60,382 nt of DNA from an uncultured bacterium. Its GTDB lineage: Bacteria; Verrucomicrobiota; Lentisphaeria; Victivallales; UBA1829. Each line of letters starts with the position of its first letter. Positions within the stretch are counted from its first letter, which is position 1. Made by a program: the position numbers and the translations under genes. Below, piece by piece: positions 5,151 through 58,123 of the stretch. The stretch is taken from contig CASERY010000097.1 of assembly GCA_949290385.1 (NCBI GenBank), forward strand, positions 1 to 60,382, read 5' to 3'. The notes under the pieces are model-generated. The model searched no databases. It worked only from the letters and a program-made list of their open reading frames with translations, and was not told the DNA's origin.

Positions 5151-6194
5151 TCAAAGATCACTGTAGATTATCAGGGTATCTCCTTCAATTCTCATAGAGG
5201 TTCCGCTGGCATCGCAGGCATATTTGAGCACGTCAATCAGCGCACAGGAATCCGTCGCTCCGGAAACGGCATAAAACTGCAGATCCTCTTCAGGAATATC
5301 GATTTTGATTTTCAGAGGCTCCTGTTCAGGCGCATTCTTCTTCTACTGGGCAATCACTTTCTCAACGACTTCCGTTAAGGGCATTTCCCGGAACTTCATT
5401 GCAGGCATCTGCTGGGTCTCAAGCCGGGATCTTAAAGACATGTTCCGGACAACAATCTATTCATTATTTTTCTGTTTTCCCACAGATCCATCTACAATGA
5501 CCACACCAAACGGTTCAATGTAATAAGAAAGATTCTTTGCTCTGCAGACAGAATCCAGCACCTCTGTGAAATTCACATTCCGCTGGTACAGATTGAAACG
5601 GATAGGACGGTCAATCAGACAGATGAAATTCAAATCCGGCGTTTCTCCCTCCACCCGCACAAGGGTTTCAGAAAGATATTTGCAGAAGTCCGAAAGATTT
5701 CCAGTAAATTTCACCATATTGATTTCATTGTTGTAAAGTCTCTTATGAGCCGAGATGTCTGAATACGGGGAAAGATCCAGCACCGGTTCAGAGGATGCTT
5801 CAAAGATAATGTTCCTGCCGGAACAGGACACCTTCAGCTGTCCCGTCATGCAGATAAGGCGGATCACATCATAAGCAGTCACATCTTTCAAATCAAGCTA
5901 AACGCTGCGTTTGTTATTCTCCACCACAGACAGCTTGCTTACAAACCGATAGCCCGTATCCCTGAAAACTGAATTCAGCTGCTGGATGGCAGCCACAGGA
6001 TTTGTCTTATTGATGAGCAGCTTGCGGACTTTCACTCTGCTCAGATCTTTTTTCACATCTTTCAAGGAATCTGCAATCATGGTAACACTGCCATGATTAC
6101 GCGTCTAAGATGATTCCTGGGCAAACGCGAAATTTCCGGAAAAGACCAGAAAACCAGCAGCAACAGCCAGCATACAGCAGCTTTTGAAGTTCAT
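5151..6194 (-). CDS. Secreted protein with three STN-like repeats, read through four UAG codons
   Basis: ATG at 6194 has GGAG upstream and begins a signal peptide (MNFKSCCMLAVAAG...FAFAQ, cleavage about residue 26). The frame contains four TAG codons, at residues 30, 99, 246 and 284 (6105-6107, 5898-5900, 5457-5459, 5343-5345), and ends at TGA 5151. Read through, the ~347 residues hold three copies of one pattern: a helix, then strands of the type 'SVxLDLKDVTAYDVIRLIC' ending in 'GRNIIFE', 'FGVVIVD' and 'GDTLIIY'. This resembles the secretin/TonB short N-terminal domain (STN), an outer-membrane-associated module, but no secretin or barrel domain follows. UAG 99 falls in an alternating strand position (V-x-L-D-L), where a polar residue fits. 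Function unknown. Confidence 0.75.
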
Positions 6195-6490
6195 AGGGAT
6201 CTCCTAAATTTATGAATAAACAATTTTCCAACTTGCTCTTTTTTCACGGAACAATTCCCCAAACGCAAACGCACCCTTTCAACCCTGTTTTTAATTCGGG
6301 ATAACGGTTCAATGCCCCCGGTAAAAGTCCGTTGAAAATAATGATAGCATTTCCATCCGTAAAAATCAAGCAGGAAAAAGTACGAAATATCCTTGATTTT
6401 CTATTTGGATCCTGTAAATTGAGCTGGGACTGTACAGACAGTCCGCTTAAAACAGTTTTACAGCTAAAAATAAACACTGGACTTTCATTT

Positions 6491-7879
6491 ATGGAACGGG
6501 AAAAACTTGGTTCACGGCTCGGATTCATTTTCCTGGCGGCAGCATGCGCCATTGGACTTGGCAACATTTGGAGATTTCCTTATATTACAGGAACCAACGG
6601 GGGCGCCTGTTTTGTGCTTCTGTATTTAATCTTTCTGGCCATTCTCGGATATCCTGCACTGATCATGGAGCTTGCCATGGGCAGAGCCTCCCAGAAGAAC
6701 ATGGTTGGAGCCTACAGAGTTCTGAAAAATCCGAAACATCCCTTCCCCTGGGAAAAGCCTGCCCTGTAGTTCTTCTGCGGCAACGCCCTGCTGATGATGT
6801 TTTATACCACCATTACAGGATGGCTCCTTGCCTATACGGTCCAGTACGCCTCCGGCACTATGATGGACCTCCATACGCCGGAAGCAGTAGGAGCGCATTT
6901 CAGTACATTTACCGCAAGCGCTTCTCAGGCAATTCCTTACTTGCTTCTAACAACCTTCATCAGTGCGGGAATTTGTGCTCTCGGCGTCCAGAACGGGGTA
7001 GAAAAAATAATTAAGTATATGATGATTTTTCTGCTCTTCATGCTCTTCTTCCTGGCAGCCAGAGCCCTTACCATGCCCGGAACCGGGAAAGCCCTGGCAT
7101 TCTATCTAAAACCCGATATCTCCAATTTCATGCAGCGCGGTCCGGCCAATGTCATCTTTGATGCCATGGGACAGGCATTCTTCACCTTGAGCATCGGCAT
7201 CGGATCCATGGAAATTTTCGGTTCCTACATTGACAAAAAACATTCTCTGGGAACTGAAAGCATCTGGATCATAGCCCTGGACACCCTTGTAGCTCTGATG
7301 GCCGGACTGATTATTTTTCCCATCTGCTTCTCCTACAATGTAGATCCGGGAAGCGGTCCGGCACTGATCTTTGTAAGCCTTCCAAACATCTTTACCCAGA
7401 TCCCCGGTGGACGCTTCTGGGGCCTACTCTTCTTCGCATTTCTTTCAGCAGCCGCTCTGACCACAGTCATTGCCGTTTTTGAAAATATGATTGCATTCCT
7501 GATGGATGAATTGCATTTTTCCAGAAAAAAAGCCTCTTTTTCCGTTTTTGCGGCCATTTCTATCCTATCGCTTCCCTGCACGCTGGGGTTCGGCATTCTC
7601 AAAAATATTCATCCGATGGGAGAATCTTCCTCCATCCTGGATCTGGAAGACTTCATCGTAAGCAACAATCTGCTGCCTCTCGGCGCACTGTTCCTGGTTT
7701 TCTTCTGCACCCTTAAACGCGGATGGGGATGGCATAATATGATCCAGGAAGCCAATACCGGAAAAGGCATCAAGCTGTCTGGCGGGAAATTTTTTCAGTT
7801 TTATGTTACATGGGTGCTTCCGCTGATTATTCTCTTCGTCTTCTTCATGGGATACTATCAGAAGTTCTTTCAGAAGTAA
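6491..7879 (+). CDS. Sodium-dependent neurotransmitter:sodium symporter (SNF/NSS) family transporter, one UAG codon
   Basis: The ~462-residue membrane protein begins with MEREKLGSRLGF and the hallmark GLGNIWRFPYITG of transmembrane helix 1, which in this family unwinds to bind Na+ and an amino-acid-like substrate. The frame has TAG at residue 93 (6767-6769); directly after it FFCGNALLMMFYTT continues helix 3, and the remaining helices follow to the TAA at 7879. Length fits bacterial NSS proteins (~450 residues) only if both parts are one gene. No good ribosome site precedes the ATG. It is divergent from the STN-repeat gene. The likely role is Na+-driven uptake of an amino acid; the substrate cannot be told. 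Confidence 0.85.
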
Positions 7880-8265
7880 TCAGTCCAGGACCACGAATGT
7901 TTCTATTCCGGTCCGACTGGGCAGTGCATGCCTGGAAAATGGTCTGCTATGGCATTTGCTTGAAGTTTTTCGTTTCCGGGAGAGAAACAATCTGCCGTTT
8001 CGGGTTCGCCATTTCCGACAGTTGCGTTGGAATGCCATCTTCCTGCCGCCGTCGGAACTACAGGAATCAAAAAAACATTCACTTGTACCGGTTACACACA
8101 GTTGGACAAATACAGATCGATTCCGGAGGGTAAAAAAAATCAAAAAAACAAACTTCTTCACGGCAAAAATACTCCATTTCTCCTGTCTAATCTGGATGAA
8201 TTCGGAATTCAGTATCTGCCATTATTTTTCTCAATCAACCCCAAAACGCGGAAAGGAACCATCTT
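7880..8265 (+). other. Short region with a weak coding candidate (8027-8269)
   Basis: A frame open from TGA 7961 gives a TTG-started ORF of 80 residues at 8027-8269 whose TGA overlaps the ATG of the TM2 gene (ATGA), an arrangement typical of coupled genes. It lacks a credible start and ribosome site and I recognise no family. A second frame just upstream has similar composition, so this could be a decayed gene. I do not annotate it as a gene. Confidence 0.3.
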
Positions 8266-9376: not shown

Positions 9377-9404
9377 TTGCAAATAATTTTCCTTATGTTA
9401 TATT
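9377..9404 (+). promoter_or_regulatory. Sigma70-type promoter of the efflux operon
   Basis: TTGCAA (9377-9382) and TATATT (9399-9404) are separated by 16 bases, in an AT-rich stretch about 70 bases before the marR start. The tandem repeat at 9422-9462 lies in the early transcribed leader, where a bound repressor could block transcription. Confidence 0.7.
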
Positions 9405-9421
9405 AAGGCTCATTCATTTAA

Positions 9422-9462
9422 AAAGTCAACCAACAGACAGGAAAGTCAATCAAACAACAAGG
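9422..9462 (+). repeat. Two tandem ~20-bp direct repeats in the marR leader, possible operator
   Basis: AAAGTCAACCAACAGACAGG is followed without a gap by AAAGTCAATCAAACAACAAGG. The copies share the AAAGTCAA head and a similar A/C-rich tail. They sit between the promoter and the MarR start codon; the end of the second copy supplies the AAGGA ribosome site. MarR proteins usually bind inverted repeats, so autoregulation through this site is inference. Confidence 0.5.
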
Positions 9463-9472
9463 ACTGTCCATA

Positions 9473-9946: not shown

Positions 9947-9949
9947 AAG

Positions 9950-11119: not shown

Positions 11120-11148
11120 TTCATTCAGCAGAAAGCAGGTTGAATAGA

Positions 11149-14100
11149 ATGTTTTCACAAATTTTTATTGACCGGCCAAAGCTGGCTATGGTAGTTTCCA
11201 TTATCATGGTCTTTGCCGGGGTTCTGTGCATTAATAAAATCCCGATTGCAGAATATCCGGAGATTTCTCCCCCGTCCCTGATGGTAATGGCCACTTATCC
11301 TGGAGCAAGTTCAGAAGTTATTGCTGACACACTGGGGTCCATTATTGAAGAAGAAATGGCCGGACTGGATGATCTTCAGTATTTCTCGTCCGACTCCAAC
11401 AACAACGGATCCTATACACTGCATATCACCTTCCAGCCCAATACCGATATTGATATGGCCCAGGTCAATGTGCAGAATGCTTTGTAGCGAGTTGAATCCA
11501 AACTGCCGGCAGAAGTGCTGGCCCTTGGAGTCAATGTCTATCAGCGAAGCAGCGACATGCTGGGCATGTATTAGTTTACTCTTGAGTCAGATAAAACCGA
11601 CATGAGTCTGCTTGAGCTGTCCAACTATCTGAGAACGCACGTCAAGGATGAACTGGTAAAAATTCCAGGACTGAGCCAGGTGGATATGATGGGAACCAGT
11701 CCCTACTCCATGCGAGTATGGCTGGACACAACCAAGATGGCAGCTCTGGGTATCGATGTATCTGAAGTATCCTAGGCCATTGAAGACCAGAATATTTCTG
11801 CAACTGCAGGCTCCATCGGAACAGAACAGAGCAGCAAATATCTTCAGTACAAGATTAATGCTGTAGGCCGTCTGAATTCTGTTGAAGAGTTTGAAAACAT
11901 TGTTGTTCGCTCCACAGAGGACGGACGCATGGTCAAGCTCGGAGACATTGCCCGGATTGAGCTGGGATCTGAAGAATACACCACCTTTGCCACAAATAAC
12001 GGCCATCCAGTTATCATGATGATGATCTACCGCAATACCGATGCCAATGCCATCAACGTAGTTGACCAGGCCAATAAGAAACTTGCAGAACTGGCAAGAC
12101 ATTTTCCGGAAGGAGTCTCGTATCATATGGGATACGACCCCACGGAATACATCAGAACCAGTATGAGAGAAATTGTTATGACTCTGATTCTGACTCTGGT
12201 CTTGGTGGTAGCCATTACCTATCTGTTCCTGCAGAACTGGCGTGCAACACTGATTCCGACACTGGCCATTCCGGTATCTATCTTTGCAACGTTTTTCTGT
12301 CTGTATTTCATGGGATTCTCCCTGAACCTGCTGACAATGTTCGCTTTGATTCTGGTGATTGGATCGTTGGTGGACGATGCCATTGTGGTGGTTGAAAACG
12401 TCATACGAATTATGCAGGAAGAAAATCTGCCGGCCAAGGAAGCCACGGAAAAAAGCATGAAACAGATCACAGGTGCAGTCATAGCCACGACCCTGGTGAT
12501 CATCGCCATTTATGCGCCTATCGGCTTTTACGGAGGAATGGTGGGAACCATCTATCTGCAGTTCTCTGTAACCATGTGTATTGCGCTGATTTTCTCCATG
12601 ATCAATGCCTTGACCCTGAGTCCGGCTCTGTGCGCCATGATTCTGAAACCGGCCAAACCGCTGAAGATCTTCAAGCCTTTTGATATCTTCCTGGGATGGA
12701 ACAAGTCCATCTACCTGTTCTTCACCAGATTCCTGGTCAGGTCTTCACTGATTACCATTATAGTCTTTCTGGTTGTGTGTGCAGTATGCTATTTCTTCTA
12801 CAGTAAAACGCTGACATCCTTCCTTCCGGATGAAGATAAAGGTGCGCTGTTCTGCATGGTGGAACTTGACCCGGGAGCCACGCTTTCCAGGACCAGTGAA
12901 GTGATGCAGAAAATTCAGAAAACCGTTCAGCCTCTTCCCGGAGTAAAGGAAGTTATCGCCATCAGCGGATTCAGCATGATGGGTGGACAGGGAGAAAATC
13001 TCGGGTTCGCAGTGATTGGCCTGAAGGACTGGGATGAACGCAAAACGGAAGAAACTTCCATTGCAGCATTGACCCAGAAGATTCAGGAGCTGACCTATTC
13101 CATTCCAGGTGCCTCCATCCGAGTCAATTAGCCTCCTGCCATTATGGGTCTGGGTGTTACCGGCGGTGTTTCGTTCATGCTTCAGACAAAAGCGGGACAG
13201 TCCGCCCAGGAACTGGAATCATAGGTAAGAGATCTGATTATAGAACTGAACAGCTGTCCTGAAACGGCCATTGCCTATACGACGTTCAATGCCTCGACCC
13301 CACAGATCTTTCTTGATATCGACCGTGATAAAGCTAAGGCATTGCACGTTCCTGTAAGCAGAATTTTCTCGACTCTGCAGTCCAAACTGTAGGCCAGTTA
13401 TATCAATGACTTCAACTTGGAAGGATATTCATTCCAAGTGAAAATCCAGGCGGATGCCATGGATCGTGAGAATGTAGAATCTCTGCTTGAAATCACTGTA
13501 CTCAATGAAAACGGTGAAATGGTTCCGTTAAGTGCATTTGCGACCCAGTCTTATACGGTGGGGCCGCGAGTTGTCACCCGTTTCAATCAGTCGGTCAGTG
13601 CGGAAGTCAATGCGTCCGTAAAACCGGGTTACAGTTCCGGCCAGCTGATGAAAACCATTCAGAAGATTGTTGACGAAAAGTTCCAGGGCTATGAAATTGC
13701 CTGGACAGATATGAGTTACCAGGAACAGGGCAATGAAGGAAAAGTTGTTACCCTGATGCTGCTGGCACTTATTTTTGCCTATCTCTTCCTTGTGGGACAG
13801 TACGAAAGCTGGACAATGCCTGTATCCGTGATCCTTTCTGTTTCCGTAGCTGTGCTCGGTGCACTGATCGGCCTGAAAATAGCCGGATTGTCTCTGAGTA
13901 TTTACGCCCAGTTAGGACTGATCATGCTCATCGGACTCTCCGGAAAGAGTGCCATTCTTATGGCTGAATTCTCCAAACAGGCACGTGAAGAAGGCTTGTC
14001 CATTGATGAGGCAGCCATTCAGGGCGGCAGCAAGCGTTACCGTGCAGTGCTGATGACTGCTTGGTCCTTCGTGATCGGTGTGTTCCCCATGGTCATTGCT

Positions 14101-14268
14101 ACGGGTGCGTGCTCCGGAAGCCGACAGGCTATCGGTGTTACGACCTTCTCCGGCATGGTGGTTGCAACGCTGTTCGGAATTATGCTGGTTCCGCCGCTGT
14201 TTGCAGTATTCCAGAGACTCCGTGAGTTCTTCCAAAGACTTCACAGGCCCGCTCCGGAGACAAAATAA
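11149..14268 (+). CDS. RND multidrug efflux pump (AcrB/HAE1 type), read through six UAG codons
   Basis: The frame from ATG 11149 (MFSQIFIDRPKLAMV) to TAA 14268 gives 1039 residues, the normal AcrB length, and follows AcrB from end to end: first membrane helix, porter domain, GxxVDDAIVVVEN in helix 4 with the proton-relay aspartates, FLPDEDKGA, and GLSGKSAILMAEF in helix 10. Six TAG codons interrupt it at residues 113, 142, 209, 661, 692 and 748 (11485, 11572, 11773, 13129, 13222, 13390). No TAA or TGA occurs in frame. UAG 113 (VQNAL-x-RVESKLP) coincides with the Gln of the AcrB stretch VQNKLQ; the other sites are variable positions. It is the last gene of the marR operon. If UAG were a stop the pump could not exist. 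Confidence 0.9.
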
Positions 14269-18511: not shown

Positions 18512-18747
18512 AACTTTCCCGAAAAATTTTCACAAGGGGAAAAGATGGAACCAAACGATGGAGGATTCCAAGATCTTATAAAATGGACGCTTGAATTCTT
18601 CATCTATATGGTTATATCTTTTTATAGACATTCCAGTATCATATCTCTATAAGAAACAATCATTTTTTGAGACATATACCGAAAAATATCCCCCTTTCCC
18701 TGCGTCCTTCCCCCTTCGCAGACATCTATGTAAACGAGGAGAAAAAA

Positions 18748-21222
18748 ATGATGACAAAAAAAAATCTGCGGCCCCTTCCGGATTCACATTCACTCATAAA
18801 ACAATGGCTTATTCTCTGGATTCTTGTTTTACTTTTTACCAATTCCGCAAGTGCCACTGAAACACAGCGTCTTCCGGACTTTATCTGGGAAACCGTGGGA
18901 AACAGCAGCGTCACTTCAACGACAGACGGGAAACGTCTGTATTTCAGTTCTTATTCAGATAAAGTTCAGGCTAAGCCTGTAACACCTCTCTGTCTCGACG
19001 GTTATTAGAGACTGTCGTTCCGTGCAAGAAGCCTTTCCGACAGTCCCTTGTCTTTAAGAGTCTATCTGGAACGGGCTCTATCCCCGGAGGACAGGCGAAC
19101 CTATGAAACTTTATTCACGCTGGGGCCCGAGTGGAAGCACTACAGCATTTTTCTAAGCCGTGGCAATGAATATCCCATCAATGGCATCTGCTGTTATGTG
19201 GGCAGCATTGAGGAAGTCCAGACTCCTGCTGAACACGATCTCGGAGCTGGAGGATATCTTGAAAAACTGGTTTTCTTTGCCTCTCCGAATGCAGAAATTG
19301 AAATCATTCCGGAAACTCTGGGCCCTGAAATTCTGCCTCCTTCAGAAAAGGTGCAGGAAGTGCTGGACCGCATGAATGAGACACCGCTTGTCCATCCGTT
19401 CCGTTTTGCTGAAACGGGTAAACGGGATGCTATTCTGCTGGCAGAAAACGGAAAAGCCTTCTTTGAAATTTCTGCTCAATCCGGGACAGAATTTGCGGCT
19501 CAGGAACTCCAGCGTGTATTAAACCAGGCAACAGGTGCAGACTTTCCCATTTCTTCAGAGAAAAAACTGCCGCAAATCCGGTTGGAAGTTTTTCCACAGT
19601 CCGGGCCGGATTCTTTTCAGTGTACAGGTAATTCGGACGGTATTGTCATACGCGGGAATTCACGCCAGGCATTGCTTTTCGGAGTCTACTCATTCCTGGA
19701 AAAAGCCGTGGGGGCACGTTGGTATTCCCCCCGTCCGTATGGAGAAGTGATTCCCCGTCTTTCCAGGCTTTCTCTGCCGGAATTTTCCGACGAGTCCACG
19801 GCCCGGATCCCCTTGCGGAAAATGCACTACTGCTGTCCATTCAGCAGTGATCTGCCGGATTTGAAAGAACATGTTGCCTGTGTAGCAGACTGGGCCGTAA
19901 AAAATCGTTTCAATACAGTCCTTGAGCGTTTCAACGCACCTTCGGACTTTTACAGCAAACGAGGGAATTTCCTGCGTCTTACCGCAATTCCCAGTCACAA
20001 TTATCATATGCTGATTCCGCCCTCCGTCTACGGAGAAAGCCATCCGGAATACTATGCCTTCAACCAGGCAGCAGGAAAGTATCAGGTTGAAAATTCCCAG
20101 CTATGTGTGACCAATTGTGATGTCATCCGCATCATTGCCGAAAAGGCCCGGGAATTTTTCCGGAACAACCCGGAGGAACCCTGTTTCCCGCTAATGCAGG
20201 AAGACGGCTATTCTCTGTGGTGCCAATGTCCGGAATGCGAGGCAGTCATGCCGACTTCCGGAGGAATCTACAGTGGTTCAACAGACCGCAATGTCTATCT
20301 GGCAAATCAGGTTATGGAGCTTATCCGGGATGAATTTCCGGACAAAGGCATCATCATATTTGCCTACAGTTTCAGTGTCGAACCTCCGAAAAAGGTCATT
20401 CCTGCTCCCGGCGTGGAAATCATGTTCTGTTTCTATTCCGATGATAGAGCCCACTTGAGGCCCTGGGAATCCGACACCGTGGCTGAATACTACCTGCGCT
20501 GGCAAGAATACCCCGATGTCAAGCTCTGGTTTTACTCCTACCATTATCTGTTCCAGAGTCTGCGCATGTCTACGCCGGATGCCTTGACGGGATCCTTCCG
20601 TTTTTTTGAAACAGTCGGAATGAAGGGTTCCTCCCAAGAAAGTTCCGTCTCCTGGGGAACGCCGGATGCCTATTTGATTTATCTGGGAGCGCGTCTCGGC
20701 TGGGATCCGTTTCAGGATGAAGCGGTTCTGCGGAAGGATTATTTTGAAGGTCTGTATGGCGCCGCCGGTGCAGAGGTACAGCGTGCCTATGAACTTATCT
20801 GCGATGCACTGATCTCACGCTCCGGCAAACTCCTTTACGTCTGCTGGGCGTTTTTCCCGGCCATCTCAGATGAACGAATTGCAGAAATTGAAGCCTGTTA
20901 TGAACGGGCAGCACAGGCCGTTGAAAATGATCCACGGGCAATGGAAGCATTGAAGGATGTACGTCTTTACTTTAAGAATCTTGTCCTGACTGTATATGCC
21001 GCCAGACGGATTGATTCTTATTTCCGTTCCCCATCTCCGGAGGCCTATCATGCAGCCATTGCGGCACTGGACGAGCTGGATCAGTCCTGTCTGCCTCTTT
21101 ATGAACAGTATCTTCTGGGAAGCCGTACCATGATGCCTCACTGGCGAGACGGCATCAACAGCGATTTCCAGCGTAAATTCCCGGATTATGCACAACCCGA
21201 TCTGGAACACGATGATGAATAA
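18748..21222 (+). CDS. DUF4838 / alpha-glucuronidase-N-like secreted protein, one UAG codon
   Basis: The frame from ATG 18748 (after GAGGAG) to TAA 21222 gives 824 residues. The N-terminus is a signal peptide (WLILWILVLLFTNSASA). TAG stands at residue 87 (19006-19008) between LCLDGY and RLSFRARSLSD in a beta-rich N-terminal domain. Next come a GH67 N-terminal-type domain ('FEISAQSGTEFAAQELQRVL', 'LLFGVYSFLEKAVGARWY') and a DUF4838 domain ('HPEYYAFNQAAGKYQ', 'LMQEDGYSLWCQCPEC'). Such proteins are numerous in Lentisphaerota and Planctomycetes and are assumed to act on polysaccharides; the activity is not established. If TAG were a stop, the signal peptide would be cut off from the whole protein. 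Confidence 0.85.
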
Positions 21223-25988: not shown

Positions 25989-27923
25989 TCAGGATTTTTT
26001 ATTCTGTAAAAGTTTTTCTTTTTTCTCTTCCAACTCTTCCCAGCGCTCATACAGAGCCTCCAGGGCCGACCGGGCTTCCTGAAGAGCGACCTGCACTTTC
26101 GGTACGTCTTTAGGCCGGCTCGAAAACAGTTGCGGATCGGAAAATTCCTTTTCCCGTTCCGCCACCAGGGCTTCCGCTTCAGGTATGGATTTTTCCAGCT
26201 GAGCGAGTTCCCGCTCCTCCATATAAGACAACTGCTTTCTGGAACTGTTCTTTTTTTCCCGTTCTTCCATGGCAAAGGTTTTCTACCGGGCCTCCTCCGC
26301 TTTCCGGGCGGATTCCTTTTCCTGTGCAGCAGACTGTTTCCGGCTGCGGCGCTTTTCCAAATAGGTATCGTAATCGCCCAGAGATATGACAGGACTCTCC
26401 GTATTTTCAAAACCAATAATGCAGTTGCAGACACGATTCAGGAAGTAGCGGTCGTGACTTACCACAATCAGAGAAGATTTGTATGCAATCAAAGCCTCTT
26501 CCAGAATCCTCAGAGAAGAAAGATCCAGGTCATTGGTCGGCTCATCCAGAATCAGAAAATTGCCGCCGTGGCGCAGGATCTTTGCAAGGATCAGGCGTGC
26601 TTTCTCTCCGCCCGACAAATACTTCACCTGTGTGTTGATGCGCTCATCCTCAAACAGGAAACGCTTCAAATATCCCCAAACCGAAATTTTTTCAGTCCCC
26701 AGGGAAACGAAGTCCTTGTTTTCCCCAATCTCCTCCAGCACCGTCAGTTCCGGATTCAACTTCATGCGTCCCTGGTCCACATAATTGAACGTAACAGTAT
26801 CCGCCACTTCCACTGTACCTGAGTCTGGTTTAAGTGACCCGGTAATCAATTTCAGAAGACTGGTTTTCCCACATCCGTTTTCTCCTACAATTCCGACTTT
26901 CGCACCAGCTGTAAACTCATAGCTGAAATGACTGAAAAGTGTCTTTCCTCCCAGGCTCAAAGAGACATCCTTCAGGGCAACCACCTTATTTCCAAGACGG
27001 GACGGCTCCGGGATAATCAGTTCCACTTCACCAGTTCTCTCCGGAGCGGACTGAGCAGCAATTTCATAAAAACGTTTTTCCCGTCCGAGATTCTTTTTCA
27101 GACGGGCCTTCGGAGACCGCCGGACCCACTCGATTTCCTTCCGAAGAAAGGCCCTGCGCTTCTGTTCAAGCACATCCTCCCGATATTCGCGGGCAGCCTT
27201 CGCTTCCAGAAAATCCGCATAACTGCCGTTGACAGAATAAAATTTTCCGTGATCCAGCTCCACAATTCTACTGGACACCCTGTCCAGAAAATAACGGTCA
27301 TGCGTCACAAACAGGCATGTACAGCGGCTGCTCGAGAGAAATTCCTCCATCCAGTGCACGGTATCCGTATCCAGATGGTTGGTCGGTTCATCCAGCAGAA
27401 GCAGGTCCGGTTCAGCAATCAGGCAGCGGGCCAGCATCACCCGGCGCTGCTCTCCACCGGACAGACTGGAAAATGAGGCATCTTCCATGCCGCTGGATAA
27501 ATGAAGACGCCCCAGCATTGTATTAAGTCTGGTTTCCAGATTCCATGCATCGTGCATCTGAAGGAGATGCTGGACGGTCTCATATTCTGCCGAACGCGGT
27601 GAAAGTGTTTCATACTGACGGATCAGATCTTCGTAATATTTCAACCCCTGACGCACAATGTCCCGAACTCTGATGTCCCGCGGAACGTCAAATTCCTGGG
27701 GCATCATGAAAATCCTGAGATTTCTTGCCATGCTGATTTTTCCGGAAGAAACCTGTTCCTTTCCTGCAATCACCCGGAGCAACGTGGTTTTTCCGCATCC
27801 GTTCCGTCCCACCAGCGCAACTTTTTCAGACTCCGCAATACTGAAGGATGCCTGATCAAAAATAATCTGTCTTCCTATATTTAAATTCAGGGCTTCTCCA
27901 TTCCAGAGTACACGTTCCGCCAT
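25989..27923 (-). CDS. uup: ABC-F ATPase, Uup type, one UAG codon
   Basis: Two ATPase domains are complete: Walker A VGRNGCGKTT and VGENGCGKTS, signatures SLSGGEQRR and YLSGGEKAR, Walker B LLLLDEPTNHLDTD and FLILDEPTNDLDLSS. TAG at residue 547 (26283-26285) lies in the charged linker EEAR-x-KTFAMEER; the same frame continues 97 residues as the Uup C-terminal coiled coil (ELAQLEKSIPEAEAL...) to TGA 25989. The total of 644 residues matches Uup. ABC-F proteins act on ribosomes; Uup affects ribosome function and transposon excision in E. coli. Stopping at UAG would remove the DNA/ribosome-binding coiled coil. Confidence 0.92.
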
Positions 27924-28083: not shown

Positions 28084-28977
28084 TTATATTCCGTTTCCAG
28101 AACCATCTTCTTCCAACGGCCATGCCTCCAGCGAAAAAGACGACTCCATGCGCTCCTGTTCCTTTTCCGGCAGCACGCTGAAAAAATCAAGTCCTGTCAG
28201 TTCTTCCACTTCATCCACCGTACAGGCGAAGTCAGCAAGGCTTCTGTTTTTCACAGTTTTGTTCGGCAGGACAAAGCCAATCATCTTTCCTCCGCCATTG
28301 GGCGAATAGAGGACCTTGTAGCACGCATCCGGTACTGCAACCTGGTTCCGTCCGATCACCCGATGCTTTTTTCCGCTGTCAAAAACCGGTCCTGTCACTA
28401 CATAGACGGATCCTTCCTTCAAGGCACATTCACGAACCCTGCTTTCCAGGTTCTGCCAGGCGCCCCGGTTCAGTTCCTGGTTTTGAGGCATCATATTGCT
28501 CATATAAAAAGATTCGGACATGGTTTTGCGAGACCATCCCATGTCCGCTGCCGGAGCCAGATGTCCCCGATCGTAACCGGATTTGCTGTAATCTTCCGGT
28601 TCCGCAGACCCCGTAATGATTCTGGGATCTGCACGAAAGTCATCCGTTCTGGAAACGGTCTTGTTCCGGACCTCATCCGCAGTTAAAAGATAGCATACCC
28701 ACACTGGCTGTTCGTATTTTTCACTGTATCCCAAGGCATATCCTCTGCGGTTGACCACCTGATCACAAGGTCCGGGTTCTCCAAGATCCAGATTATCGAA
28801 CCTCCCGTAAAGAAGAGTATATACATAATCTTCCTATGAATAACAGACATTCCAGAATCTTGCTTCGATGTCCGGACGCATTTGAAACAGCAGATGGGCT
28901 GCCAGCATCAGGATAAGAATCAGGATACCCGCAATGCTTTTCCGTCTGAAAAAACCTTTTTTCGATTTTCTTGCCAT
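28084..28977 (-). CDS. DNA/RNA non-specific endonuclease (NUC1/NucA type), membrane-anchored, one UAG codon
   Basis: ATG 28977 begins MARKSKKGFFRRK followed by a membrane helix (SIAGILILILMLAAHLLF), so the enzyme is anchored with its catalytic part outside. TAG at residue 48 (28834-28836) separates FWNVCYS from EDYVYTLLYGRF. The catalytic domain follows with the family signature DRGHLAPAADM (general-base His) and MMPQNQELNRGAW (Mg2+-binding Asn). It cuts DNA and RNA using Mg2+. Total 297 residues, stop TAA. No immunity gene or ribosome site is seen. Read with a standard code, the nuclease would lack its anchor and any good start. Confidence 0.88.
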
Positions 28978-29424
28978 TTTAATTTTTAGATTTTGCAAAA
29001 TTAAAAGATTTAAACAAATTTTATAATTTCTGAAGAAACCCTCTGTTTGATGCGCTCTAAAATAATCACTTTTTCTGTAGACTTCAATATACCTCTGCAG
29101 AAAAAACAAGTGAAAGTAATACAATGTCGTCCTTGAAAAACGGGAAGACATGACCTTTCCTTTCATTCAGCTTGCTCTTTTACAGGTGGTAAGAGTCGAT
29201 CGATTCGGATTTTTGAAGAAAGAAATGGGATTCCATCGGAGTCCATCATCGGTAAAATTTGCCGGACACAACGCACGAAAAGGAAATACACGGATTTTTT
29301 TGCTTTTCATCTTCAGGATCTCCTTTCAAAACCCATGAATCCGTGCTATATTACTTTAAAATATTTTTTTATTCCGTCATTCCATAAATTTTCAGTTTTT
29401 TGAGTGAAAGGATTGCCGTTCATC
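28978..29424. other. Divergent intergenic region between the endonuclease and ackA
   Basis: About 450 bases without a gene. A possible weak ackA promoter is TATATT at 29351-29356 with TTTCAA 17 bases upstream; the -35 match is poor. Confidence 0.4.
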
Positions 29425-33537: not shown

Positions 33538-34377
33538 TTACTTAACAAGTTGGCTGCTTCCCTTTCCTTCATAATCATCTGCCTCCTTGGACACATCAGG
33601 GATTAGATAACTATCCTGTTCCAGTGGATCTGGGCCGAATTCGTTTATCCCGGTCTGTCCCTTGATACAACCAAATACCAAGAAAAGGATATTGAGAGCT
33701 GCACCTAAACAATACACAATCCACATACTGCATATGGCAAATAAAGCAACTTCTGGAGAATATACAAACCACAGATACTCCACCTACACTTCTTTCAGTG
33801 AAGGTGTGAAATAATAGATATCGTATGTTTTTGTAAAAAACGAATCAATACAAAGCCCCAGAACTCTTGAAATGATCATTAAAGTTCCTAAGATTTTTCC
33901 TTTATGACCCAAATCATGAATTCGTCTCATACATAAGCTAAAAAAAATAACATAGTATATGATATCGTCTAATTGTAATACCCAAAAGCCGCTCCATCCA
34001 AACCCGAGATCAATATAGTATGTGGCTAAGAGACTAGTATAACCCTGTACAAATAATATAAAAATTGTTAGAAAAAGCATAGTTCCCCAGAATTCTCTTC
34101 TGGATGCACGTCCGCTGCAGTCTACAAATTTCTTTGTAACAGACCGTACAAAATACTGCCAGAGAGAAGGTCTTCTTTTTTTATTTTTAACGGAGCTCTT
34201 CTCCTGTGAAGGAGTATTTTGTAGGGATATATCCGGATTCTATTCATTTTCAGAAGATTTCCACTGTGCACCACATTTCGGACATATTTCTGCCGCAGAC
34301 TCTCTGTCAATCGATTCCTCTTCCACTGCGATATTATTGCCGCAAACAGGAAACACTTTTCCGATTTTACTCATCAT
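33538..34377 (-). CDS. Zinc-ribbon/DUF805-type membrane protein, two UAG codons
   Basis: ATG 34377 (or 34374) follows GAGGGAG. The N-terminus is a ribbon-like module with VCG and CPKCG; its first knuckle reads FPVC, so only three cysteines are present. TAG at residue 46 (34240-34242) joins it to a linker and a DUF805 domain: the family signature 'FVRSVTKKFVDCSGRASRREFWGTML', membrane helices, then RRIHDLGHKGK. TAG at residue 198 (33784-33786) joins LKEV to VEYLWFVYSPE and a last helix, ending TAA 33538. Total 279 residues. DUF805 proteins (E. coli YhaH) are small inner-membrane proteins of unclear role. The gene is AT-richer than its neighbours. Confidence 0.8.
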
Positions 34378-34693
34378 CGTCTCCCTCATTTTCAATTCAG
34401 AAATCCTGATGTTATATGGCATTACTGCAAATTCAGTCGATTTAGAAATAAGTATTCCATATCCAAATTCTCTATAAAGATTATAGAAGAGGTCATTTTT
34501 TTTCAAATATATTTTATTCTTTTTTTTACAAATACCTAATTTTTATAAGTATTCAAATCTTACATCAATCTTTGCATTTCTTTAGAAATCAGCTAATTAT
34601 GCATTAAAATATTTTATATAGAAGTACTTTAGATACAAAAAATCACCGTATCTGCAAAAATATTTCCATCAAAAAAACTAAAAGTCGATAAAT
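34378..34693. other. AT-rich intergenic region, no gene seen
   Basis: About 315 strongly AT-rich bases. A short imperfect hairpin (AGATAC / GTATCT) near 34630-34655 lacks a T-run. Probably holds the promoter of the DUF805 gene. Confidence 0.5.
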
Positions 34694-38052: not shown

Positions 38053-40086
38053 TCACTTTTTCTGTTTCCAGTCCAAAGCTCCCACCGGACATTCTTCAAT
38101 ACATGCACCGCAGTCTTTGCAATAGGACGGCAATCCCCGGTCAAATGCAGTCTGCACCTGTGTATTGAATCCACGCTTCATCAGAGCCAGCAGACTCTTG
38201 TTGATGACTTCCGAACAAATCTTCACACAAGTTCCGCAACGGATGCATTTGTGCTTGTCATGAATAATAAACTCGTGGCGTGTATCCACCGTGGAAACCG
38301 GTTTCTAACCCGTAAACATATCCGGCTGCACTTTGTATTCCGTGGCATGCTTCTTCAGGAAACAGTCCCCCTTCGCCGTGCAGCTGCATTCGATGCAGCG
38401 TTCAGCCTCTTTGGAAACTTTGTCCGCAGGAATCGACGGGAACAATTCTTCAAAAGTAGTTCTGCGTTTTTCCATGGAAATAAATTCCGGCTTTACGCGC
38501 TCCTCTTCCGAAATTTTCCGCAGATACACCAGATCCTCTTTCGCCAGACTGCGCCAATGTCCTCTTGAAACATTGAACACAAACGGTTCCTCATGCTTGC
38601 GGCCCGCCAGATAATCTCCAATGGAAAGCGCCGCTTTCCGACCGGCAGCCAGTGCTTCCACCACAGTCGCAGGACCGGAAACACAGTCACCCGCTGCAAA
38701 GACAGGCGCATCACCGGCACATTTCAGATCTGCCGGATCCACCTCTATGCCGCGCTTGGCAGCCGGAACGCCTTCCGGCACAACTGTGCGCTGACCGATG
38801 GCGGCAATCACAGTATCCGCTGCAATTTCAAAATCAGATCCCGGCACAGGAACAGGGGTTCTGCGTCCGGATGCATCCGCCGCCCCCAGTTCCATCCGTT
38901 GACAGGCAAGTCTCAGGGAGCCGTCCTCCGCCTTTTTCAGAGAAAGCGGAGCGGTCAGGAATTCGAACTTCACGCCTTCATCCATCGCTTCCTGAATTTC
39001 ATTTGCTTCTGCGGGCATCTCAGCGCGTGTCCGGCGGTAACACACAGTTACATCTCCGCCCAGACGGAGCGCAGTTCTGGCGCAGTCCATGGCGGTATTG
39101 CCTCCGCCTACCACAACGGTTCTTCCGGGATTTGCACAGTTCTTCCAGTTCTTTCCGGCGATATCGCCCAGCCATGCAATTCCCTGCTGTGCAAGATCTT
39201 CTCCTTCAATTCTCATGGAGCTGGAAGACCAGGATCCCACGGCCAGCAGTACGGCATCATATTCCGCTTTCAGGCATTCCAGCGTGAAATCCCTGCCCAG
39301 CTTCTGGTTGCAACGGATTTCCACATCCATTTTCTGGAAGTGAGCCAGTTCGCGTCTGAGGATGTCCTTCGGCAGACGGAATTCCGGAATGCCGTAACGG
39401 AGCATTCCACCGGGTTCCGGCATCTGCTCATAAAGAACAGACTGAATTCCCTGTTCCCGCAAATAATAAGCAGCGGAAAAACCGGCAGGACCGGCACCGA
39501 CAATAGCCACTTTTTTACCATTGAGCGGCGGAAGTTCTTCCATGTATTCGTCGTAGTAAAGGTCAGCCGCAATACGTTTCACTTCGTTGATCGCAACGGG
39601 CTTTCCATCAATATTCCGCCGGCAGTCCTTCTCGCAGAAGCGCGGGCAGACACGGCCCACAGACATCGGCAGCGGAATTCTTTTCTTAATGATTTTAAGC
39701 GCTTCCAGGAAATTGCCCTTTCTGCCGGCGCGCACGTATTCCTCCACGCTGGCATGAGCAGGACAAGCCATGGTGCAGGGTGCTTCACAGTCGCCTGTAT
39801 GCTCCGAGAGAAGCAGTCCGAGCGCGGTTCTGCGCATTTCACGCACCTCCGGAGAGGAGGACTCAATGACCTGTCCGTTGGAAGGACATGCAGAACAGGA
39901 TGGCAGGAATTTGCCAGTCTTCACATCCTTGACCACGCACACGAAGCAGGAGGTCGTTCTGGAGATTTTCTGATTGAAACAAAGAGTAGGAATATGAATT
40001 CCAACTTTCTCGGCCGCCTGAAGAATGGTTTCTCCCGGCTGAGCCGTCACTTCTTTACCGTCTAAAATAAATTGAATTTCCGGCAT
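38053..40086 (-). CDS. Electron-bifurcating transhydrogenase subunit, StnC-like (2Fe-2S + GltD-like flavoprotein + 2[4Fe-4S]), one UAG codon
   Basis: 677 residues in three parts. Residues 1-110 are a NuoG-type N-terminus with a [2Fe-2S] domain and further Cys clusters (HTGDCEAPCTMACPAH). Residues 110-560 are a GltD/NfnB-like NAD(P)H-FAD oxidoreductase with GAGPAGFSAAYYL and GGGNTAMDCARTAL. TAG at residue 594 (38305-38307) separates PDMFTG from KPVSTVDTRHEF; the frame continues as two [4Fe-4S] sites (CIRCGTCVKIC, CKDCGACIEECP) to TGA 38053. Homologues carry the same C-terminal ferredoxin in one chain. With the next two subunits it matches the Sporomusa-type Nfn (Stn) layout, which couples NADH, NADPH and ferredoxin. 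No H-cluster, so not a hydrogenase. Confidence 0.8.
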
Positions 40087-46114: not shown

Positions 46115-46119
46115 CGGAT

Positions 46120-51237: not shown

Positions 51238-52596
51238 TTATTTCTTCTTTTTAGCCGGTGATTTTTTCACAGAAGTCTAAGATTTTGCCGGAACAGCTTT
51301 CTTTCCAGTGGCCGCAGAAGCCTTGACTTCGTCAGTCTTTTTGGCTGGAGATTTCTTAGAAGCGGTTTTCCGGACAGGCTTCTGGCCGTTGTTGAAGTAT
51401 TCAACCAGATCTTCTGCCGGAGGCGGAATTTCCTGAGGCATGTTGCCGTTGCGGATGGAATATGTTCCAAGGACGCCTGTCGCCACAGAATTTCTGGCGG
51501 CAATCGGAGAATTGCTTGGAATGCTTTCTCCATTTTTTGCAAAACGGACAAACGCCGCCACGATATCCGGATCCGCACCGCCATGGCCGCCCGCCACATC
51601 GCGCAGATAGAAGGACTGGTCCGGCATACCGAATCCGCCGCGAGTTGTATAGACATCGATACGTCTTCCATATCCGTCACCATAGTTCTCAATCCGGCCC
51701 TTGTCTCCGATAAACGTATAGTTGCGGCAATGGTCAGGAGTATAATGGCACTGCATGTAGTTGGCGAGCACGCCATTGTCCAGCTGCATCATCACAGTGC
51801 TTTCGTCTTCCACATCAATGACCGGAGAAATTCCTTTGAGTTCCAGCGGCGGCCAGTTGCTCTCGCTCCAGGTCACGATACCGCGTTCAGAAGCCTTCCT
51901 GCGGTTCTTGCAGCGATTGTAAACAGAAAGTCTTCCCATGCCGACAACACGTTTTGTATAGCCGCCGGAAAGCCAGTGAATCACATCAATATCATGTGCG
52001 CCCTTCTGCAGGAGAAGGCCTGTGGTATTTTTGGCCTCTGAATGCCAGTCCTTGAAATAGGCATCTCCTCCATAGCTGATGAAATGACGGCACCACACAG
52101 TCTGAAGTTCCCCAATGATACCGGAATCAATGAGTTCCTTCATTCGGATAATATAATCCATATGACGCATGTTGTGTCCCACGAAAAGCCGGGATCCTGT
52201 TTCCATAGCGGTCCGCAGGATGCGGTCGCATCCTTCAATGGTAATGGCCATGGGTTTTTCAAGATAGACAGTTTTTCCAGCCTTCAGGGCAGCCACCGCG
52301 AATTCTTCATGAAGATAGTCGGGAACTGTAACGAAGACAGCATCCACATCTTTGCGGGCAAGGACTTTTTTATAATCATCCGTTCTGAAAATGGATTTGT
52401 CATTTTTTAAAGATTTCCATGCGGGACTTTCAAAGGCTTCCGGACGAATATCGCAGAGAGCCGTAATTACTGCGCCGGAACCTTCCTGCAGGACATTGCT
52501 TGCAAGGCCGCCACGTCCGCCGGCACCCAGGACTCCGATCCGGAGAACCCGGTCATCTTTTTTTGCAGATTTTTCAACTGTCTTTTTTTCAGCCAT
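51238..52596 (-). CDS. Gfo/Idh/MocA-family oxidoreductase with Lys-rich tail, one UAG codon
   Basis: ATG 52596 follows GAAGAGG. After a basic leader (AEKKTVEKSAKKDD) the Rossmann fold starts with RIGVLGAGGRGGLASNV; the EKP motif is in VYLEKPMAI, and the C-terminal alpha/beta domain carries HYTPDHCRNYTFIGDKGRIE. It would oxidise or reduce a sugar or sugar-like alcohol with NAD(P). TAG at residue 440 (51277-51279) lies in a Lys/Ala/Pro-rich tail: PAKS-x-TSVKKSPAKKKK, then TAA. The composition is the same on both sides. 452 residues. The tail resembles histone-like extensions and its role is unknown. Confidence 0.85.
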
Positions 52597-53403
52597 TCTA
52601 AAACCTCTTCTTTGTTTGTTTACAGGATTCCAACAGATTGATGCAAAGTTAAGGTACACTTTCATGGAGGAAATCTCAATATTTTTCAAATTGTTTTTGC
52701 TGATTTTTTTGATATTTCTTCATACTTTTCGGATTTTTTTCAAAGGCTTTTCAGAAAAAAATGGATTTTCCTTTAAACAAAGTCCGTCTCTGAAAAACCC
52801 CATGATCGGAGATGGGCGAAAGGAAGAGAAACGATTGACAGAAGAAACGCAACAGGATTCTCTAAAATTCAAACGAACTGGAATCAAAAAAATGCAAAAT
52901 CCTCCTCAATCCGGCCATTTTCTGAATTCAGCAGAGCCTTCCTCCGCCCGCACATGGTTCCTGCAGGTCGCAGAACCGCTCACAGAAAAGTTTCATCTTT
53001 ATCCGGCAGAGACTCTCTCGAGGAGTTTTTCCCCCGACAGAATCCCTGTTGACGGATTCGCAGAAAGAGTTAGAGAGTAAATCACAAGAACCCGAGCCCA
53101 TTTCCTCCCCGTATCACAAATTCGTCTCAGCCTGCATACACAGCAAGGTTTCCTTATTTTTCCGGAAAAGAAACATTGTTTTTTTCAATCGCCCGCTTAT
53201 ATTTACCCCAGAGACGAACTGCAGAATGGGTAAAATAATGTTTTACTACGGAATGGAAGTCTCACAAAAAGTATGGATATATCACATTTTGTATCCTGCA
53301 GAGCATTTGAAAGATGCGTGCAAATCATTAAATTGAATGACTGAACAGAGAAATCTGAATCGTCCGGAATAACATAAAAACAATTATTACAAGGAGATTA
53401 AGA
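52597..53403. other. Intergenic region with one weak ORF (52664-53080, +)
   Basis: About 800 bases between divergent genes. A plus-strand frame of 138 residues from ATG 52664 has a hydrophobic start (IFFKLFLLIFLIFLHTF) and a polar remainder, preceded by AAGG. It has no recognisable family, overlaps the likely promoter of the minus-strand Gfo/Idh gene, and I do not call it. Confidence 0.3.
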
Positions 53404-54210: not shown

Positions 54211-54248
54211 TTTCCTTACAAACATCCTTAACGGAGTAATTTGCAAAA

Positions 54249-55466: not shown

Positions 55467-55491
55467 TCTTTCTTCTCGTCTGATCTAATTC

Positions 55492-55531
55492 AAACGGAAT
55501 CCTGTCTTGATGACAGGGTTCCGTTTTTTTT
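55492..55531 (+). terminator. Rho-independent terminator of the TIM-barrel/Gfo operon
   Basis: AAACGGAATCCTGTC / GACAGGGTTCCGTTT forms a 15-bp stem with one mismatch and a five-base loop, followed by TTTTT. Confidence 0.9.
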
Positions 55532-55595
55532 ATACCCGCTTCTGAATAGGGAATAAATCTTATAGGCAGGTAAGTGAGAAAGAAAAAATATGAAT

Positions 55596-55695
55596 GCGAG
55601 AAGAAAAAACCTTTTGAGGAAAGGTTCTTTCCTTCTCGCGCTCTTCCTTTTCCAAACCTTTTTGCATCATCTTTTCCCTCAACGGGAAAAGATAA
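55596..55695. repeat. Dispersed hairpin repeat, locus C copy 1
   Basis: 100 bp: GCGAGAAGAAAAAACC arm, inner TTTTGAGGAAAGG, arm TTTCCTTCTCGC, tail CGCTCTTCCTTTTCC...CATCATC, second hairpin CTTTTCCC / GGGAAAAG. Confidence 0.92.
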
Positions 55696-55833
55696 AATAC
55701 ATTTTTTGAAAAATATCAGAATAATATAAGTCTGTGAATCATATCCACATACGTTGCAAAGAAAAACAATTGCATAATACAGAAAACAAAAAACAATGAA
55801 AAAACTCTAATGCGAAAAGGGTTGATAGGATAT

Positions 55834-55932
55834 GCGAGAAAGAAAAACCTTTTAAGGAAAGGTTCTTTCCTTCTCGCGCTCTTCCTTTTCCAAACCTTTT
55901 TGCATCATCTTTTCCCTCAACGGGAAAAGATT
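55834..55932. repeat. Dispersed hairpin repeat, locus C copy 2
   Basis: 99 bp copy nearly identical to copy 1, with GCGAGAAAGAAAAACC as 5' arm and the same tail and second hairpin. Confidence 0.92.
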
Positions 55933-56011
55933 AGGGAGTTAAATTCAAAACTGATATAAGACACATTTGTTAAACACAAAGGATAAGTATAAAGTATGAA
56001 AAGCAAAAAAG

Positions 56012-57169
56012 TCAAAAGGACCTTGTTACAAAATCCCGGCTGACGCCCCCCGTAGCAGAAAGTTCCATATTCTGGAAACAAAGGCCTTCCGTATATCTTG
56101 CCACCAGCGGTACTTCAGACTTCACAATTCCAGTAAAATCTGAAAAACACAGATCTTTCAAAACAGTTCTATCATTTCCCTCCAGATCCACCGGCATTCC
56201 GGAATGAACCCGGAAATGGCTGAATCTGATCCGTTCCAGACTGCGCAGCCGAATAGAATCCTCTACAAAAATACGAACAGGGCAACCCTCTGAAACGATA
56301 TCAAAATGATCAAAGGAAATATCGCTTATCCTCTAATATCCGTGGCAATCTTTCTAAAGGTATCGTAACGGATATTCAAAGTGAATGCCATTTCCCTGTC
56401 CCCGGAAAACAATATGGCTGAAACTGCAGTGCCGGATCGTATCATCGCTGGGACATCCCACTCGAATTCCCTGACAGCGGCTGTCCAGAAAACAATTCGA
56501 CACCATAACATCCTCGCATACACATTCCGTCTCCGGCAGTCGCCGGATTGCCCGGAGAATCAAGCAGTCGTCTCCTGTACGGAATGTACTGTCACATACT
56601 GTTACGCGCCTGCATCCGTCAATATCAATTCCATCGTTATTGATCATCTGCTGGCATCCTGTAATGTGCACATGGCGGATACAAACATCTTCACAGGCAA
56701 TCAGCCATACTGTCCACCCCGGAGAATCTTTCAGGGATATATTTTCAAGCCTCACATTCCGGCAGTCATATAGCTGAATCATCCGCGGTCGCGGTTTCGA
56801 TGGTTTCGCAAAAAAGGCACCGGCCGGTACATTTCGGTTGTAAAATTCCGGACCCCTTCCATCAATCTCTCCGCTTCCGGTAATGGCAATATTTTCACAG
56901 GATGCACAGGCGATCAAGCATTTACGGCTTCCTTCCGGTACGACTGCATCCAAGCCGGGATTTCGAAAATCATCATAGGCTTCACTGAATGGATACCCGA
57001 GAATTCTGGCTCCTGCCGGCACATGCAGTTCCACATTGCTTTTTAAATAGAGGGTTCCGGAAAGGTAAGTCCCCGGCTGCAAAACCACACGTCCGCCTCC
57101 CGTAGAAGCGGCATGGTCAATAGCCTGCTGAATAGATTTTCCTGTCATTTCTTCTGGTATATAATCCAT
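56012..57169 (-). CDS. GH28-type polygalacturonase-like glycosidase, two UAG codons
   Basis: ATG 57169 follows GGAG. The frame runs 385 residues to TGA 56012. It is a right-handed beta-helix of family GH28: NNDGIDIDGC and TGDDCLIL supply the three catalytic aspartates, and CQGIRVG replaces the family's GHG region, with no His, which is unusual. TAGs at residues 272 and 279 (56354-56356, 56333-56335) flank KDCHGY in the last third; the beta-helix pattern goes on afterwards (RISDISFDHFDIVSEGCPVRIFV...). No signal peptide, so it may act inside the cell on oligogalacturonides or related sugars. It is alone and converges with the sugar operon. Confidence 0.88.
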
Positions 57170-57496
57170 AGCTCCAACCTCATTTCGCTTCTTGACATTT
57201 TCTCAAAAAACTGTTCTGTACAATCTGTTGCCACGAAAGGCAGAAGTGTTGTCTCTGAAAATTTGGATAAGGATAGACAGTTTCAATGCAAAGCCTGTCT
57301 GCATGCTGACTTTATCCGGCTCCCTTCCCCGCCTGGTCCGATTCCTGACAGTAAATTTCAGAACAAAGATGTCCACATATCCGTAACAAAACGGTATTCT
57401 CTTTGTTCTCTCCAGGATGCCATTCTCTTGACCTTTCGGCTGTTTGGCGGCAATGACAAAACCATTCTCTTTACGCTCTCTCCGCAGAGAATACCG
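57170..57496. other. Intergenic region with a widely spaced inverted repeat
   Basis: About 325 bases. ACGGTATTCTCT (57391-57402) and AGAGAATACCGT (57486-57497) are perfect 12-bp inverted copies 83 bases apart; the right copy ends at the first base of the HAD stop codon. TTGACA at 57193 on the plus strand has no -10 at proper distance. No gene seen. Confidence 0.5.
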
Positions 57497-58123
57497 TCAA
57501 CCTCGTATAATGGCAATCAGATCTTCCGGGTTCTGCACAGAATAACGTGCAGGAATTGTCCGGCTTCTGCTTCCCCATAAAGCCAATGCAAAGTCCACAC
57601 CTGCAGCAGCTGCGCATTCACTGTCACAGGGGCTGTCTCCAATATACAGAACATTCTCCGGCACGGTTTTCTCCAGTTCCATCCATCGGATCAATGGATC
57701 CGGATAAGGTTTGCACTTCTCTGTCTCTCCCGCGCAAACCTAAGACTTAAAATAACGGACTATTTCAAACCGGCAGAAATCATGATTGAATTCATCTCTG
57801 TTTTTAGCCGTTACAATTCCCGCTGTTCCGCCGGAATCTGCAATAAATTTCAAAACCTGCTCCATGCCCGGAAATACCTTGACTTTATCCATGTAATGAT
57901 CCATGTTTTCCGTCCATTTGTGGAGTTTTTCTGAAATGTTTTCTCCAAGATTGAGATGTTCAAAGACTCCCTGGCCCGTCAATTCCAGGACAAAATTCAA
58001 ATCTTTGCCGGCAATCTCCTGTCCAGTGAGTTCCCGTACAGTATCCTGCAGAGAATGAATCAAAGCATATGCCGTGTCCAACAGAGTTCCATCGATATCA
58101 AAAACGATATGTGTATATTTCAT
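57497..58123 (-). CDS. HAD-superfamily phosphatase (phosphoglycolate phosphatase-like), one UAG codon
   Basis: ATG 58123 begins MKYTHIVFDIDGTLLDT, HAD motif I with the nucleophile Asp. A helical cap follows (residues 15-80), then motif II in GIVTAKNR. TAG at residue 128 (57740-57742) lies in RYFKS-x-VCAGETEKCKPYPDP, where the Lys of KP is motif III, and motif IV is GDSPCDSECAAAAG. Both catalytic halves are thus on opposite sides of the UAG, so the protein works only if it is read through. 208 residues, stop TGA. Likely substrate is a small phosphate ester. It stands alone. Confidence 0.9.

Follow-up and report, generated by a model that had tools for sequence, protein, structure and literature searches.

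Analysis of a 60,382-nt stretch of DNA from an uncultured bacterium of the order Victivallales (assembly GCA_949290385.1, contig CASERY010000097.1; hereafter the window), and of the genome from which it comes, revealed TAG codons within core genes and no gene for release factor 1 (RF1) at the locus where relatives carry it; UAG is therefore predicted to be a sense codon. On the sequence evidence it is almost surely one, as the first-pass annotation of the window had proposed. The fuller reading, in which this Victivallales-type bacterium has UAG in core genes, lacks RF1 at the ancestral locus and most likely translates UAG as glutamine, is considered reasonably probable.

The assembly to which the window belongs (as contig C97) comprises 2.68 Mb in 168 contigs, with an estimated completeness of about 78.5% and an estimated contamination of 2.0%; 677 kb of this genome, the window included, were analysed in 41 stretches. 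The nearest well-assembled relative, a 97% complete genome of the same family (G004), was used for comparison over 1.53 Mb (L097-L176). The two genomes share 82% identity in release factor 2 (RF2) and 87% in rpoA. Among the genomes searched, the genus contains the window genome alone, and the nearest named relatives by RF2 search are Lentisphaeria / Victivallales assemblies, several of them from sheep, goat or yak rumen.

In order to count stop codons inside genes, translated G004 frames were aligned to window-genome DNA, which gave 279 alignments covering 69,157 columns. Within them 59 in-frame TAG codons were found, versus 2 TAA and 4 TGA. Of these six TAA and TGA codons, three closely precede a Met, in places where the alignment extends past the gene start, two fall in frames judged non-coding, and one is unexplained. 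The last, at L092:14646, is the sole aligned in-frame TGA for which no explanation was found. The reverse control, in which window-genome frames were aligned to G004 DNA (72,064 columns), yielded 2 TAG, 3 TAA and 2 TGA, and both of these TAGs sit opposite a TAG in the window genome, one of them in a frame judged to be antisense to a tRNA. TAG was present in 28 of the 41 stretches and is thus not confined to a few foreign contigs. It is the rarest triplet after TAA and TGA in the aligned columns (0.85 per 1000).

The genes affected include basic cellular functions. Frames containing TAG scored above the curated NCBIfam cut-offs for rpoC (1747 bits), secY, recJ, uvrC, rpoA, alaS, ruvA, dapA and the RF2 gene (prfB), and a TAG-containing glucose-6-phosphate isomerase frame reached 548 bits, below its cut-off. 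In prfB itself the TAG is codon 42, a position occupied in 29 relatives by Gln (13), Lys (10) or Arg (6). Most bacteria cannot do without several of these core genes, so pseudogenes cannot account for all of them.

The second line of evidence is the absence of RF1. No match above the cut-off of the RF1 model was found in any assembled contig of the window genome; the two matches below it were RF2, which scored 524.7 bits against its own model, and a protein of 192 residues whose best resemblance is to release factor H, although it falls well short of the cut-off for that factor. RF1 was found above the cut-off in 114 of 120 genomes sampled from the order, the window genome being included in the sample. 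The six without it comprise the window genome, one genome that narrowly misses the cut-off and four whose completeness is 69-78%. Two genomes of the same family, G074 and G086, show no RF1-level match, but they are 72% and 69% complete, and the RF2 gene is without an in-frame stop in either.

The surroundings of the RF1 gene, prfA, were compared in 21 family relatives, namely G004 and 20 genomes chosen among 33 with an RF1-level match. The gene rpmE lies directly upstream of prfA in 20 of them (G004 being the exception) and an ABC transporter gene immediately follows it in 10, including G004, so that prfA adjoins rpmE, the ABC gene or both in all 21. In the window genome the corresponding region, on contig C43:944-3355 (L285:898-3309), contains rpmE (94.6 bits as ribosomal protein L31), a gap of about 400 bp in which no gene is recognisable, and the ABC gene, an orthologue with 60% identity; both genes are inside the contig, and there is no prfA. 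A loose search of the gap for a prfA remnant gave nothing convincing (best E 0.47). The state of affairs that the first-pass annotation had proposed to look for, prfA missing and prfB present, is therefore that of the assembly: a functional RF1 was searched for and not found, the ancestral locus is assembled but empty, and RF2 is ordinary. RF1 appears to have been lost, and a move of prfA into the unassembled part of the genome is unlikely. Two genes resembling the one that precedes prfA in G004 were seen at C99:2330-4459 and C32:10796-12838, neither being followed by prfA in the stretch seen; they are glutamine-synthetase-like by a weak match, and their assignment to type III is our reading.

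A modified RF2 that reads UAG was considered and set aside, as no change supporting it was present in comparison with 27 relatives. The protein retains the SPF and GGQ motifs, and only two well-conserved positions differ from these relatives, which gives no sign that it recognises UAG.

The ends of genes tell the same story. Matching to G004 gave 222 gene ends, at which TAA is the first stop 114 times, TGA 98 times and TAG 10 times. Of the TAG-first ends, five come within 15 codons of where the alignment stops: two belong to frames judged spurious, and in the other three an in-frame TGA follows at +3, +5 and +18 codons. TAG no longer ends genes, and TAA and TGA are the stops in use. In G004, which keeps RF1, only 3 of the 210 closed genes with a match terminate in TAG. 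With TAG stops already so rare, loss of RF1 would be cheap, and the figure fits a course of events that began with the codon becoming rare.

In the window, a recount found 21 in-frame TAG codons in 11 genes (Table 1), exactly as first reported, and these genes terminate in TAA (6) or TGA (5). Two further claims made for them stood in part. The first was that the frame continues as the same protein past each TAG: homology spans or flanks 15 of the 21 codons, in eight genes (six in AcrB, two in GH28, two in DUF805 and one in FecR, the last two by weak matches, and one each in SNF, Uup, Fer2 and HAD). For the other six, in the DUF4838, Endonuclease_NS and GFO/IDH genes and at three FecR positions, the matches found do not reach across the TAG, so that continuation there is indicated by the open frame alone. 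The second claim, that no gene is interrupted by TAA or TGA, is true of the 11 genes but by construction, because their frames run from one TAA or TGA to the next; the genome-wide count given above is the informative one. Frame length is likewise no evidence by itself, as open frames of at least 300 codons that need a stop to be read as sense number 13 for TAG, 31 for TAA and 45 for TGA. Just 4 of the 21 window TAGs, all in the AcrB-type permease, passed the filter of the G004-alignment count. The columns at the six TAGs of this permease, taken over 27 non-redundant homologues, are occupied by K/R, A/V/S, A/S/N, Q, A and A/S.

Table 1. Window genes carrying in-frame TAG codons (codon starts are plus-strand positions in the window) and the reach of homology around them.
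Gene	Position	Strand	In-frame TAG	Homology at the TAG
FecR-like	5151..6194	-	4 (6105, 5898, 5457, 5343)	weak PF16344 match (28 bits, residues 93-130) spans codon 99 only
Sodium:neurotransmitter symporter (SNF)	6332..7879	+	1 (6767, codon 146)	alignment to 4us3_A, residues 56-513, crosses TAG
RND (AcrB-type) permease	11140..14268	+	6 (11485, 11572, 11773, 13129, 13222, 13390)	PF00873, residues 5-1024 of 1042
DUF4838	18667..21222	+	1 (19006, codon 114)	matches begin at residue 252 or later; TAG not spanned
Uup-type ABC-F	25989..27923	-	1 (26283, codon 547)	TAG ahead of C-terminal ABC_tran_CTD; both sides align to G004, 59% identical
DNA/RNA non-specific endonuclease (Endonuclease_NS)	28084..29166	-	1 (28834, codon 111)	matches begin at residue 124 or later; TAG not spanned
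DUF805	33538..34506	-	2 (34240, 33784)	codon 241 within PF05656 match; weak alignment (E 1e-5, 23%) spans both
Fer2/pyridine-nucleotide (Pyr_redox) oxidoreductase	38053..40086	-	1 (38305, codon 594)	TAG between oxidoreductase and C-terminal ferredoxin domains
GFO/IDH/MocA oxidoreductase	51238..52689	-	1 (51277, codon 471 of 483)	matches end at residue 447 or earlier; TAG not spanned
GH28 / beta-helix	56012..57169	-	2 (56354, 56333)	alignment of residues 12-354 to a Lentisphaeria contig, 33% identical, crosses both
HAD hydrolase	57497..58123	-	1 (57740, codon 128)	TAG within HAD_2; PF13419, residues 6-180

The amino acid inserted at UAG is less clear-cut than its translation. Two of the 59 aligned TAGs (locus L194, in a frame judged non-coding) are doubtful and were dropped from the likelihoods; at the remaining 57 sites G004 has Ala (12), Lys (10), Gln (8), Arg (5), Gly (4) and other residues, and the log-likelihoods were -169.5 for Gln, -177.5 for Lys and -194.9 for Ala. 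When the comparison was restricted to orthologues of at least 65% identity (21 sites: Gln 6, Ala 4, Lys 4, Glu 2, others), Gln reached -52.7, background composition -62.8 and Lys -64.6, with Ala more than 25 log units behind Gln. Gln won 906 of 1000 bootstraps at this limit and 751 to 801 of 1000 at other identity limits. The same likelihood method, applied to six sense codons, returned the right residue in 300 of 300 draws for each. Summed Pfam scores of eight domains with TAG inside were not decisive (2298.1 bits with TAG read as Gln, 2296.8 as Lys and 2292.1 as Ala); some domains were also scored with Glu, Ser or Arg, and glucose-6-phosphate isomerase and UvrC were not summed, the TAG lying outside the reported domain. 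The glutamine assignment of the first-pass annotation thus holds as the most likely single meaning in conserved orthologues, short of being established.

A number of observations count against glutamine as a uniform meaning. Over all 57 sites background composition (-165.4) scored slightly above Gln. The codon does not align with Gln as other Gln codons do, Gln being found in 8 of 57 TAG columns as against 930 of 1803 for CAG; this deficit and the rarity of TAG indicate that it is not a mature synonym of CAG. In profiles of three proteins with many homologues, two TAG sites are frequently Gln among the non-redundant homologues (16 of 27 at AcrB 664 and 42 of 85 at amidohydrolase 123) and another has Ala in 19 of 27, but there are also sites ill-suited to Gln: one is Lys in all 65 homologues, one Ala in 24 of 27 and one Ile in 59 of 85. 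The invariant Lys, at L201:11032 (-), belongs to a NuoN/HyfF-like proton-channel subunit and is also present in 5 PDB chains among the matches listed; this site is hard to square with Gln unless the protein is relaxed or the reading mixed. Over 11 profiled sites, a twelfth having been dropped for too few homologues, no residue fits (Ala +2.2, Gln -13.7, Lys -19.4 bits). The control of 53 sense codons in the same proteins returned the right residue in 197-200 of 200 equal-size draws, although it leans somewhat towards sense codons because the homologues were picked by likeness to the window-genome sequence. Judged from these alignments, TAG seems to behave as a codon tolerated mainly at permissive positions.

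The tRNA complement also weighs on this side, with the reservation that the assembly is only 78% complete. All 46 tRNA matches were read with ARAGORN, which left uncalled one truncated copy at a contig end, read as tRNA-Glu. A tRNA with anticodon CUA, which the first-pass annotation had suggested as a check, was not found among them in the assembly; extending the search to E = 10 added only a 13.7-bit match inside the tmRNA gene, and a CUA-loop pattern search gave 6 matches versus 21 for the backward-pattern control. Of the 31 tRNA species in the fetched part of G004, 26 are present in the window genome and 5 are missing. About one tRNA species in six would therefore be missed, and a CUA tRNA could be unassembled. 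The genome carries two tRNA-Gln genes (CUG and UUG). The former (L033:101-174) has an A before CCA, where G004 and nearly all relatives among the matches listed have G; in E. coli the position before CCA is an identity position for glutaminyl-tRNA synthetase. An altered tRNA-Gln(CUG) was rejected as a candidate decoder, its anticodon arm being identical to that of G004. Another rejected candidate, a tRNA-Sec-like element with the loop TTCTAAA and a T-loop at C164:65-149(-) (L182:65-149), scored 19.4 bits against a tRNA-Sec gathering score of 47 and had a folding z-score of 0.08; as the loop pattern was also no commoner than its backward control, it is probably a chance match.

A scenario that would accommodate these data begins with the loss of prfA in an ancestor that by then made little use of TAG as a stop. 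From then on UAG could only be elongated, and TAG codons would have built up mostly at tolerant positions. The decoder would be a tRNA for Gln. It may be a tRNA-Gln(CUA) missing from the assembly, or else the ordinary tRNA-Gln(CUG), which, freed from competition with RF1, may read UAG through a G-U pair at the first codon position; some misreading by lysine tRNA may occur beside it.

The strongest alternative, possible though less probable than glutamine, is that UAG is a sense codon without a fixed meaning: RF1 has been lost, there is no dedicated tRNA, several near-cognate tRNAs (Gln, Lys and others) read the codon, and TAG survives where many residues work. The absence of a CUA tRNA down to E = 10 in this incomplete assembly, the failure of any residue to fit the profiled sites where sense codons do, the rarity of TAG and the unchanged anticodon arm of tRNA-Gln(CUG) all accord with it, as do mixture weights at TAG of 0.24 for Ala, 0.22 for Gln and 0.21 for Lys. 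E. coli without RF1 behaves in this manner (PMC6207430, PMC4434889). However, Gln is clearly favoured in conserved orthologues, a CUA tRNA may simply be among the tRNA species missing from the assembly, and up to six TAGs occur in one gene, where slow reading would be penalised. A variant of this idea, possible rather than probable, is that of an ordinary-sized genome in the midst of reassignment. Its RF1 gene would have been deleted and, for want of any tRNA specific for UAG, near-cognate tRNAs would decode the codon ambiguously, in most cases as Gln; such a natural counterpart of RF1-deleted E. coli would have allowed UAG to spread across core genes.

It is rather unlikely that UAG has another fixed meaning, chiefly Lys or Ala, conferred by an unassembled CUA tRNA of that identity. 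The Lys of the NuoN-like subunit, invariant in its homologues and shared by the PDB chains mentioned above, speaks for lysine; Ala is the commonest residue in the pairwise columns, the best of 20 over the 11 profiled sites and, with Val, the residue at the rpoA TAG site in 5 chains among the matches listed. Yet in conserved orthologues Lys falls behind Gln by 12 log units and Ala by the still larger distance given above, and neither fits the Gln sites of AcrB and the amidohydrolase.

That the pattern is an artefact, produced by pseudogene decay, by sequencing errors or by contigs of a recoded phage or eukaryote, is very improbable. The assembly is fragmented and incomplete, and a 2021 screen warns that ciliate contamination can mimic UAG and UAA recoding (PMC8629427), but decay or error would yield TAA and TGA as well, and the TAGs lie on many contigs, in bacterial housekeeping genes closely similar to those of G004. 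Least credible of all is pyrrolysine, whose codon is UAG, or occasional readthrough with RF1 retained, because no RF1 was found in the assembly, TAG occurs in many unrelated housekeeping genes, and the best PylS match (TIGR02367) scored 20.2 bits against a cut-off of 178.15, matches below the cut-off being found in 12 of 14 control genomes as well.

Among known systems, the reassignment of UGA in bacteria, to Trp in Mycoplasmatales and some symbionts and to Gly in Absconditabacteria/Gracilibacteria, resembles the present case in that a stop codon has turned into a sense codon. The verrucomicrobial symbiont Candidatus Organicella lacks RF2, the release factor for its reassigned codon (PMC8204192), just as RF1 is absent here. 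The difference is that those systems involve UGA and the loss of RF2, with a UCA-anticodon tRNA in Ca. Organicella, whereas the window genome involves UAG and the loss of RF1, and no CUA tRNA was found. According to the 2021 screen, which covered more than 250,000 genomes, all known bacterial stop-codon changes concern UGA; the five changes that it newly describes are all in codons for arginine (PMC8629427). UGA read as Trp and four-base-pair anticodon stems are the subject of a 2026 survey that covered 42,109 bacterial genomes (PMC13092985). Among the papers listed by full-text searches, which largely exclude subscription papers, none reports that UAG has been reassigned in the genome of a bacterium; a report outside them is possible.

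Gut phages with genetic code 15 read TAG as Gln (PMC9523058), the same codon and, if glutamine is right, the same residue; in the window genome, by contrast, the TAGs lie in housekeeping genes of a bacterial chromosome and the cell itself is without RF1. RF1-deleted E. coli, either the recoded strain (PMC6207430) or B-95.dA (PMC4434889), shares the lack of RF1 and of a dedicated tRNA for UAG. Endogenous tRNAs insert Gln, Tyr, Asp and Val at UAG in the former (PMC6207430) and Gln, Tyr and Trp in the latter (PMC4434889). Residual termination at UAG was also reported in RF1-less E. coli (PMC4434889), which counts against the reading preferred here. These strains were engineered, with UAG stops removed first, whereas the window genome is natural and has accumulated UAG inside genes. 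The nuclear codes of ciliates and some algae, in which UAG and UAA mean Gln, are alike in converting stop to Gln, the commonest change in eukaryotic nuclear genomes (PMC8629427). They differ in being eukaryotic and in usually changing UAA and UAG together. In such codes a single release factor, eRF1, is altered.

If the prediction is true, RF1 too can be lost in nature, and without extreme genome reduction, given the 2.68 Mb assembled. Should no dedicated tRNA exist, the ambiguous-intermediate stage of code change would become directly testable in this organism. On the practical side, gene callers using code 11 would cut TAG-bearing genes into pieces, and the completeness estimate may be understated for this reason.

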